Assembly: GCF_003096695.1 (NCBI RefSeq)
Contig: NZ_QEKY01000012.1
Coordinates: 1-64,000, forward strand
Length of the DNA: 64,000 nucleotides
Direction: 5' to 3'
Origin: Porphyromonas loveana
Lineage (GTDB): Bacteria; Bacteroidota; Bacteroidia; Bacteroidales; Porphyromonadaceae
The number at the start of each line of letters is the position of its first letter. The first letter of the stretch is position 1. Made by a program: the position numbers and the translations under genes. The notes under the pieces were generated by a model. That model was not told the origin of the DNA. It was given only the letters and a program-made list of their open reading frames with translations, and made no database searches. Shown here piece by piece: positions 6,737-50,449 of the stretch.

Positions 6737-6744
6737 TATATTTG
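6737..6744 (+). promoter_or_regulatory. -7 box of element copy 1
   Basis: TATATTTG matches TAnnTTTG and is followed by CACCG, as is the corresponding TACATTTG of copy 3. No well-spaced -33 box is present (a TTTG lies only 15 bases upstream). It points at the short ORF and hairpin that follow. Confidence 0.45.
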
Positions 6745-6773
6745 CACCGTAAATAAATGACTAAATGATCGTA

Positions 6774-6860
6774 ATGACGAATAACAGACTTGTGAATGTA
6801 ATCTGCCGCAATTGCCCTGCTCTCTTTCCTTTTTCTCTTGCTGTACAGCAAAGAGATTGA
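6774..6860 (+). CDS. Candidate short ORF of element copy 1 (28 aa)
   Basis: ATG to TGA encodes a 28-residue basic peptide starting MTNNRLVN with a core CPALFPFSL. The third copy encodes a similar core, YPTLFPFPL, after MRNNRSN, and the second a weaker VSPLFLSI. The ORF sits between a -7 box 30 bases upstream and a terminator-like hairpin 88 bases downstream. No clear Shine-Dalgarno is visible, which is usual here. It may be a peptide gene or simply a non-coding RNA. Similarity in DNA alone could also explain the shared core. Confidence 0.3.
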   Translation: MTNNRLVNVICRNCPALFPFSLAVQQRD

Positions 6861-6948
6861 GGTGTGTTGCGAGTAAAGTTGATAAGTGTTTATCTTCTAA
6901 TGGCAGATAGGATGGAATAAAGGCAGTTTGATATTGCTCAAAGCATAG

Positions 6949-6999
6949 AATCCCCGTTGTGTTCTTCCCTGAACGCAATGGGGATTTTCTTTTTTTTAT
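6949..6999 (+). terminator. Hairpin and T-tract ending element copy 1 transcript
   Basis: Arms 6949-6963 and 6972-6986 form 15 pairs (two G-U) with an 8-base loop, followed by a T-rich run to 6999. It looks like an intrinsic terminator for a transcript starting after the -7 box at 6737. Equivalent hairpins occur in copies 2 and 3 with paired substitutions. Confidence 0.65.
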
Positions 7000-7515
7000 T
7001 CACTTTAAATATCCTCTTGAAGAGCATTATCTTTATAAAGTTTACCTTCTAATCTTTATAAGTTTGAAGATGAGCTTTATGATTATTAGAAATGATTATT
7101 ATAAAAATTGTATGTAGAAATTATAAAGATTACTTTCCATAGCCGTAATTATTGCGTTTCATGTGTTCAAATCGCGTTTTTTGCCCTTTGTCTGCTCTCC
7201 GGCCAACCCTCAACAGGTCGCTTATTTAGAGAGAATCTAAATAGCTGGTCGATGTTGATAAGTTTTTTGGTGCATAAATTATCGCCGGAAGAGTTACATA
7301 GATTAACAGAGATTGGATTTTATTTGATTTCTTTCCTAATTTGGCTGAAGGGGGGCCAAGTCAAAAGTGTAAGTCCTTTGTGGAGAGAGGAAAAGTCTGC
7401 TGACAGACCGTTTTTTCGGAGTTTTCATCCTCGATTTACCCGTCGTGCAATATGAGTTTGCTTCTACGGATGGGCAAAAAAGAGGAGACATATAGCGCTA
7501 TAACGTTAGATGTCT

Positions 7516-15194: not shown

Positions 15195-15705
15195 CGTTTA
15201 TCACTACTTCATTGCACTCTTGAAAATCCGGCTTGGAAGAACCCGCGAAATAGGTTTGTTTGCATTAAACTGCAATGCTGTGTCAGATAAATCCTCTATT
15301 TTGGCTTATCGAAAGCCTCTATTGGTGGTATTTTGATAATGCGAAACAATTGTTCAATAATCATTTTCTAAAAACAAACGATATGAAGAAATTATTCTCT
15401 GTTTTTTTTGGAGCTAAAAAAGTTTTCAACATCGAAGGAATATACAGAGTTGTTTGGATTCATTCTAAATAAGCAGGCTTTTGAATGCTAATCTGTGAAC
15501 AAACAGAGGTTGAAAAAGACGATTTGCTCAGTCGGAAGATTACTTTTCTGAGCTTGGTGGATGATCTTTATAATTCCTACATTCTATTTTTATAAAGATT
15601 GTTTCTGATAATTATAAAGTTCAGGAATGAACTTTATAAAGTTAAGAAGTCATTTTTATAAAGTTTGCATCCTCCAAAAGGCTATTCAAGACCGCTAAAA
15701 ACGGA

Positions 15706-15745
15706 AAGTCCCCGTTGCATTCTGCCACGAATGCAACGGGGACTT
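15706..15745 (-). terminator. Hairpin of element copy 2
   Basis: Arms 15706-15722 and 15729-15745 pair perfectly (17 bp, core AAGTCCCCGTTGCATT) with a 6-base loop. In the minus-strand sense it is followed by TTCCGTTTTT. It corresponds to the hairpins at 6949 and 43083. Confidence 0.7.
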
Positions 15746-15918: not shown

Positions 15919-16192
15919 TACTTTTATTTATTGCATGTTACTATTGGCTTTGTCGGTCGGTATGCTCTGAAATTTAGCTATTTATGTGTTGTGGCACTGC
16001 CCGATCGGCATACAAAGGTAACAAATAGAATGCATCCTCTCCCCTCATGCATCGTTTTGTACGTTTGGCCGTGATCGGCTTTTCGGGCTCTGAAATGACA
16101 TGCGCGGTCATAAGCCCTCTGTTCCTTCTAATTTGATTGGCTGATTTTGAATGCAATTGTCCTGTTTTGCAGGCGCTGTCGGCGCAATGTTG

Positions 16193-42693: not shown

Positions 42694-43082
42694 TAGATAA
42701 TCTGTCCGAATTCTCTTGTCCTTGATGCCATGTTTCTTTTCTTCTGTGAAGGCCGATTTGTGTTAATAGATGTTGTCTGTTCCTGCTTTGTTTATGTGCC
42801 AAAAAACTTATCAACACCGAAGAAAAGCTTAGAATCATTCTAAATAAGCGATCTTTTGAAGGGTAGCCAAAGAGAAAAAATGAGAAGAAAAATGCCCCTT
42901 TTGCTTTCGCAAATTCGTTTTTACCGAGGAGAGCGATCAAGTTTATAAAAGTAAGATTTGATTTTTATAAAGATCACTTTCAATAATTATAATCATTGCA
43001 TCTGGAGTTTATAAAGTTTAGAAGTCATATTTATAAAGTTTGCCTCCTCCAAAGAGCTGTTTGAGACTGCAAAAAAACGGAA

Positions 43083-43120
43083 AGTCCCCGCTGCGTTAGA
43101 TTGCGAATGCAGCGGGGACT
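43083..43120 (-). terminator. Hairpin of element copy 3
   Basis: Arms 43083-43097 and 43106-43120 pair over 15 positions (one is G-U on the plus strand, A-C on the minus strand). Minus-strand sequence after it reads TTCCGTTTTTTTG. Confidence 0.65.
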
Positions 43121-43158
43121 CTCTATCTTTGATTAGGCCGATCAGCTCTTATTCCATC

Positions 43159-43305
43159 CTATCTGCCATCGGATGATAAACGATTGTTTATAAATCTCTC
43201 CGTTGCATGGACACGCCAATGCGCGCACGTTAGGGGAAAAGGGAAGAGAGTGGGGTAGATCCTACGGGCTATATTACTACGGTTATTTCTCATCATTGTA
43301 GTCAT
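43159..43305 (-). CDS. Candidate short ORF of element copy 3 (48 aa)
   Basis: ATG at 43305 (or ATG ATG from 43296) to TAG 43161-43159 encodes 48 residues: MTTMMRNNRSN, core YPTLFPFPL, then CAHWRVHATERF and a basic end. It resembles the copy 1 peptide in NNR and PxLFPFxL. The position between -7 box and terminator is the same in all three copies. No Shine-Dalgarno or signal peptide is seen. It could be a real peptide or a feature of conserved non-coding DNA. Confidence 0.35.
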   Translation of the reverse strand: MTTMMRNNRSNIARRIYPTLFPFPLTCAHWRVHATERFINNRLSSDGR

Positions 43306-43474
43306 TTATAACGAGCATTTACTGTTTGCGGGCAGAATGTTCTGATATTCATCTGTTTATTTTTCAGCTAACTTCCTGCTGCGGTGCAAATGTAGCAAAA
43401 AGAAGGCTCCTCCCATGCTCCTTGCCTTCTGCTCCACGAAACAATTTAAGAGAGGCTGATCGGATACAAATTGT

Positions 43475-49898: not shown

Positions 49899-50191
49899 CT
49901 AATATCGGCCTGCACACCAACCCTCCGTGCGCAGCTCCATAACAAAATAACAATCCCGCAAGCCTATTTGTTGGACATAACCATTTGTTTCCCTCAAACG
50001 GAGCGGATGACTATTTGTTATCTCTACAAGCAATGTATGACCATTGATCTGATGATAAAAAAGCTGCAAACCAAGCTTGTACCGCCTACACATCTGTAGA
50101 ATTTCTGTTTTTTGGATCATCATCAATGTCCGAATAGTCCCGAAAACAGTTTTTTTAGTTGTCGTTCACGTACGATGACTCTAATCACACT

Positions 50192-50449
50192 GCTTTTAGG
50201 TGCGTTATATACTGTAACGACTGGTATATCATTTGCTTTTGGGTGCATTATATACTGTAACGACTATTGTGTCGTTTGCTTTTGAGTGCATGATAGGCTA
50301 TAATGACGTTAAAAGCATTTGTTTTTGATGCCATTACAGCCTGTAATGGCTGCTATATCATTTGCTTTTGTAGGCATTATACTATGAAATAGTCTTCGAG
50401 TACAATGCTTTTGTGCATGCTACAGGCTGCAATGAATTGAAAACCAGTC
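50192..50449. repeat. Six 43-bp tandem repeats
   Basis: Units start at 50192, 50235, 50278, 50321, 50364 and 50407. Each starts GCTTTTG-like and carries a central inverted motif; unit 4 has the perfect palindrome CCATTACAG-C-CTGTAATGG. Units 1 and 2 differ at few positions, units 5 and 6 are diverged. The period is not a multiple of three and no frame is open across, so it is non-coding. The rest of 49900-50590 shows nothing. Confidence 0.8.

Follow-up and report, generated by a model that had tools for sequence, protein, structure and literature searches.

A dispersed intergenic element family in the Porphyromonas gingivalis group, with a promoter, a hairpin, a phased 22-bp array and an arm resembling a dnaA-upstream module

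At iteron-type plasmid origins, such as those of R6K and pPS10, 22-bp direct units in phase, an AT-rich stretch and a DnaA box lie side by side. On chromosomes, datA and DARS1/2 of Escherichia coli and the DnaA-box clusters of Bacillus subtilis are noncoding, intergenic and constrained loci outside oriC (PMC4585315, PMC5010248; for titration, PMC12371093), which occur at one or a few loci and combine several DnaA boxes with IHF and Fis sites. Among interspersed repeats, the BrickBuilt MITE of P. gingivalis is dispersed, intergenic and present in ~20 copies, with a 23-nt unit (AGAYCATARTATCCTCTCRTRTG) repeated in tandem 1-22.8 times between IS5-type inverted ends (PMC4596501). PINSR of Prevotella intermedia (188 bp, 177-184 copies) is likewise multi-copy and intergenic, lacks inverted ends and conserved coding, and occurs at rearrangement points and in positions mostly common to strains (PMC4755523). 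Finally, 22-bp tandem repeats were noted in P. gingivalis W83 by Nelson et al. (2003), and according to PMC4596501 neither their locations nor a larger unit were described there.

Here we analyzed a family of elements first seen in a 64-kb stretch of the Porphyromonas loveana genome (64,000 nucleotides, hereafter the window), in which three copies (c1, c2, c3) were present. Like datA, DARS and the B. subtilis clusters, the element is noncoding, intergenic, constrained and carries a DnaA-box-like sequence outside oriC; unlike them, it exists in 30-40 copies with one consensus box each, plus a promoter, a terminator and a phased five-unit array. It shares with iteron origins the in-phase 22-bp units, the AT-rich stretch and an adjoining DnaA-box-like site, but its units are near-palindromic, it is chromosomal and present in dozens of copies, and no Rep gene was recognised beside the window copies. 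By analogy, PINSR, which belongs to another genus and was compared by description only, is the nearest repeat in behaviour, while datA, DARS and the titration regions are the nearest in proposed function. The W83 repeats are probably the same arrays.

Reading and aligning the three copies confirmed the preliminary description, in which three sites had been reported to carry the same parts in the same order (Table 1). The -7 box had been placed 205-270 bases before the hairpin; we measured 212 bp in c1, within that range, and slightly longer distances in c2 (275) and c3 (~273 bp). The short ORF has its stop codon within the shared sequence GGCAGATAGGATGGAATAA. Neighbouring genes were unrelated, encoding cation efflux and a C92 peptidase at c3, outer-membrane efflux and a DUF6242 protein at c1, and a DUF4199 protein and rubrerythrin at c2, and no strict rule was found for their orientation around the copies. 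Searches of the window with Rfam covariance models brought only tRNAs to gathering score, so that the element corresponds to no known Rfam family. A separate tandem array at window positions 50191-50381 (43-bp unit, 4.4 copies) was apparently unrelated to the element.

Table 1. Parts of the three element copies in the window (E-values from searches of the whole P. loveana genome)
Copy	Feature	Position	Strand	Basis or remark
c3	-7 box TACATTTG, sigma-ABfr-type Bacteroidetes promoter, T-tract immediately upstream	43387..43394	-	read directly
c3	ORF, 48 codons (MTTMMRNNR...SSDGR*)	43159..43305	-	translation; not considered a maintained protein
c3	GC-rich, intrinsic-terminator-like hairpin with a T-run after it	43081..43121	-	read directly; family-wide covariation
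c3	Array of five 22-bp units, TTTATAAA-type palindromic cores	42934..43044	-	
c3	Distal arm GCTTATTTAGAATGATTCTAAG...TTCGGTGTTGATAAGTTTTTTGG, DnaA-box-like TGTTGATAA	42799..42849	-	dnaA-upstream-like module; E 3.8e-15
c1	-7 box TATATTTG	6737..6744	+	read directly
c1	Hairpin AATCCCCGTTGTGTTC..GAACGCAATGGGGATT and T-run	6949..6986	+	
c1	Five-unit 22-bp array	7025..7135	+	
c1	Distal arm	7221..7270	+	E 2.8e-11
c2	-7 box TACCTTTG	16013..16020	-	read directly
c2	Hairpin AAGTCCCCGTTGCATTC..GAATGCAACGGGGACTT	15706..15745	-	
c2	Five-unit 22-bp array	15559..15669	-	
c2	Distal arm, 10-bp insertion (one helical turn) between its two halves	15414..15473	-	59-bp match, E 5.9e-12

Three copies proved to be an undercount. 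Whole-genome searches with a sequence model recovered ~32 copies in P. loveana (G000), ~30 in G006, which we took as P. gingivalis and which carries BrickBuilt repeats, and 41 in P. gulae DSM 15663 (G008); c3 used alone as a query gave 39 matches in its own genome. A 49-bp arm pattern matched 27, 29 and 41 times in G000, G006 and G008, respectively, was absent from 23 other Porphyromonas genomes and 12 more from the same taxonomic family, and gave 0 matches when reversed. Hence chance, which had been considered as a source of likeness among the three sites, falls far short of the similarity found (arm E-values from 2.8e-11 to 3.8e-15). A relaxed arm pattern searched against 84,980 species genomes returned only P. 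gulae, from a collection that may omit P. loveana or very near records; the DnaA proteins of P. loveana and G006 are 89% identical. The best weak matches in four further genomes (G003, G009, G011, G019) lacked hairpin and array and were read as chance partial matches, and a phage origin was rejected, as the two arm-bearing IMG/VR contigs are a 96-97% match to a P. gingivalis chromosomal locus (L130). The family is one of ~30-40 copies per chromosome in P. gingivalis and its closest relatives, built on one rigid plan.

That plan, computed from 96 copies with flanks, comprises a Bacteroidetes-type -7 box, ~180-300 bp, a hairpin, five 22-bp units, a spacer and a 50-bp arm. At the 5′ end, the T-tract and TA..TTTG are near-invariant (87/96 copies). 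The hairpin has 17 bp and a 6-nt loop, and 97.2% of its positions pair, versus 75.2% in a control with partners taken from other copies; compensatory types occur at nearly every pair, and the covariation was independently supported by a second analysis. The end of the hairpin and the arm are 232 bp apart in most copies; most of the remainder measure 210 or 254 bp, one unit fewer or more. What had been called a minisatellite is instead a fixed phased array, in which each of five positions has its own consensus, cores are near-palindromic and length changes by one whole unit. The core is CGATTTATATATAAATCG-like in P. gingivalis and P. gulae and TTTATAAA-like in P. loveana, a concerted change between lineages that suggests a co-evolving dimeric binder. 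A 10-bp insertion interrupts the arm in four P. loveana copies, c2 included; it equals one helical turn, as would be expected if helical spacing matters. A perfect palindrome was also considered for the arm's left half, and was only partly kept.

An ORF of ~30-50 codons lies between the box and the hairpin in most copies, and the preliminary description had left a small RNA or a peptide as alternatives. Substitutions in the ORF were flat by codon position (60/58/57), dN/dS was ~0.75, and frames broke in many orthologous pairs, leaving no in-frame counterpart, in counts that include a few within-genome pairs; this makes it more likely that the transcribed part is noncoding, which speaks against the peptide half of the earlier proposal and favours RNA, and a family of short variable peptide genes, for which the ORF itself speaks, is highly improbable. 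The earlier view of an independent unit, and not a neighbour's leader, held up, given the differing neighbours, the unit's own promoter and terminator, and constraint on the whole unit.

We compared constraint across 22 P. gingivalis/P. gulae orthologous pairs. Identity was highest in the arm (96.4%), followed by the array (93.9), promoter (93.4) and hairpin (92.8), then the transcribed part (88.4%) and spacer (86.4), as compared with 83.5-83.8% in the outside flanks, and gaps made up 13-19% outside the element versus 0.2% in the arm. Every part of the element is thus more conserved than the flanks in this species pair, and the copies look host-maintained; dead transposon copies are unlikely, because such constraint at so many loci would not be expected of them.

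These values bear on whether the copies form a multicopy family of trans-acting regulatory small RNAs, in which the array and arm would be a shared regulator's operator or a read-through region. A predicted promoter and intrinsic terminator of its own in nearly all copies, a hairpin maintained by compensatory change, and a transcribed part above the flanks in conservation agree with this reading, yet the transcribed part ranks below promoter, hairpin, array and arm, the terminator is the sole conserved RNA structure predicted, and the operator-like parts lie downstream of it. Nor would such RNAs explain why hairpin, array and arm are rigidly spaced on the DNA, and we regard a small RNA family as rather unlikely.

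With regard to mobility, conservation starts at the promoter T-tract/-7 box and stops at TTTTTTGGCACG, and neither of these two consensus ends is an inverted copy of the other; no terminal inverted repeats were found, and end words were shared no more than with shuffled partners in the three genomes, giving no signal of target-site duplication. A MITE-like nature, as had been supposed, is thus not supported, and the array is not the BrickBuilt family, as had also been suggested: the BrickBuilt 23-mer had 0 matches in the window with up to 3 mismatches allowed, is located separately in P. gingivalis, and the IS5-type inverted-repeat ends (GAGACCTTTGCA) were not those of the element. Between P. 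gingivalis and P. gulae, at least one flank was common at 27 of 29 loci, and both flanks at 14, while P. loveana and P. gingivalis had both flanks in common at 1 of 28, implying that copies are stable in one species pair but were dispersed or replaced over longer time. P. gulae copies without a same-place P. gingivalis partner lie at rearranged sites or correspond to remnants cut by MITE-like sequence. At one such locus (L270, G006:841655-841956), P. gingivalis retains a scrap of the array, with the rest replaced by MITE-like sequence, and the P. gulae unit is intact, which is local decay of the element.

The sole locus with both flanks common to the three species (L097, G000:C6:11869; L128 in G006; L156 in G008) has a P. 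gingivalis-type arm and hairpin in P. loveana; either this copy is ancestral or the segment was acquired by transfer. Copy c1 lies at a synteny break, and empty-site comparison gave no clean insertion boundary; the neighbours of c3 were not found at the DNA level in the synteny comparison. The flanks of one P. gulae copy (L155) and of c1 (6737-7270) are widely separated in the P. gingivalis genome (131 and 198 kb; 485 and 325 kb), so that copies sit at rearrangement breakpoints and may undergo recombination with one another. Such positions, along with lineage-specific subfamilies, the strictly intergenic setting of all window copies, and the near absence of positions common to P. loveana and P. 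gingivalis, would suit the spread of a non-autonomous mobile element, MITE-like or of another kind, in each lineage independently, with arm and array as ends for a putative transposase or recombinase and host function absent or incidental. Set against this are the ends described above, a 5′ boundary that is a promoter, the shared placement of loci in P. gingivalis and P. gulae with all parts constrained there, and a transposase partner that was not found; we consider mobility alone an unlikely account.

Copies are dispersed around the chromosome, with a mean spacing of 81 kb. In G006 they show a weak bias toward regions distant from dnaA (median relative distance 0.71, KS p=0.045), 15 being within 0.35 Mb of the antipode versus 8.6 expected. 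Dispersal, this weak enrichment and the concerted change of the array core could indicate chromosome-organising or segregation sites akin to parS or matS, with the phased array as the main recognition site and an arm that only positions it. However, matS and parS each consist of one short site, with neither promoter nor terminator, the G006 copies have no orientation bias with replication (12/29), and conservation peaks in the arm and not in the array, making sites of this kind improbable.

The arm itself resembles sequence upstream of dnaA, a likeness that the preliminary description had not noted. When a two-part arm matrix was scanned over 804 kb of strand, the top non-element matches lay upstream of dnaA in all three species (27.8, 15.8 and 13.0 bits), each having its spacing altered by -2; overlapping and element-derived matches aside, the next-best site scored -17.5 and was itself upstream of dnaA, in G009. 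In whole-genome model searches, the dnaA site was recovered at full length in G000 (E=1.2e-4) and more weakly in G006 (0.024) and G008 (0.078). In two element-free species the module, CTTATTT..A.TCA.T.TAAATAA.....CTGTTGAAAA.TTTTT, likewise lies upstream of dnaA, at a distance of ~320 bp and with 28/34 and 24/34 positions matching (at most 22 and 21 in shuffles), suggesting that the elements arose after the dnaA module.

Within the arm, TGTTGA[AT]AA occurs at a fixed offset in 91 of 96 copies. Upstream of dnaA in 22 species, TTATCAACA occurred 9 times as an exact match, versus 0.23 expected, alongside canonical TTATCCACA, which occurred 5 times versus 0.10 expected; in some species, the canonical DnaA box (TGTGGATAACTC) occupies a setting like that of TGTTGATAACTC. 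The DnaA-box sequence of datA and DARS would hence have its counterpart here in the variant TGTTGAWAA, which is enriched upstream of dnaA across the genus, while in place of several clustered boxes each arm has a single consensus box (consensus boxes alone being assessed). A segment of DnaA domain IV (L241, L242 and other dnaA loci) reads GRNHATVLHG in the three element-bearing species and GRDHTTVLHA in E. coli, with the difference at residues that probably contact the DnaA box; this change might accompany the TTWTCAACA box variant. In G006, the sampled GC skew switches sign close to dnaA and around 1.1-1.46 Mb, consistent with (though no proof of) an origin next to dnaA, and the dnaA-upstream module is probably part of oriC or of a dnaA control region. 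Among other Bacteroidetes, a large distance frequently separates oriC from dnaA (PMC4755523).

From the computed architecture, copy number, constraint and resemblance of arm to dnaA-upstream region, we infer transcription, DnaA binding, the nature of an array-binding protein and a role in replication, and tentatively prefer to see the elements as dispersed, transcribed DnaA-binding loci that may act in replication control or chromosome organisation. A housekeeping-type promoter would produce an untranslated RNA of ~250-300 nt ending at the strong hairpin terminator, downstream of which a rigid DNA platform would present five helically phased, near-palindromic 22-bp sites and the 50-bp arm. A putative dimeric protein would fill the array and DnaA would bind the arm via its variant box, such that ~30-40 nucleoprotein loci could titrate or reset DnaA in a datA/DARS-like manner, or mark chromosome regions during replication; transcription through the element's 5′ portion may serve to load the platform or to clear it.

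Several observations temper a role for DnaA. Each unit has only one consensus box, against several in datA, DARS and the B. subtilis clusters, and the resemblance of arm to dnaA region is modest in P. gingivalis and P. gulae taken alone (E 0.02-0.08). Copy positions differ between P. loveana and P. gingivalis, so dispersal also occurred, and the enrichment toward the terminus is weak. More speculatively, and somewhat doubtfully, RNA unit, phased array and origin-type module could form a distributed replication-control system, with dozens of loci jointly titrating or remodelling DnaA or serving as auxiliary initiation sites, unlike the single-locus datA and DARS.

The elements constitute a large constrained noncoding family of the P. 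gingivalis group, to which the literature searched gives at most a mention, in the form of 22-bp repeats without locations. Even without a DnaA role, the family explains intergenic sequences of a recurring kind and, probably, some spurious small-ORF annotations. If the arms bind DnaA, it would represent a new design that distributes replication control over the chromosome, in a phylum in which such control is little known and in a host group that includes a major oral pathogen.
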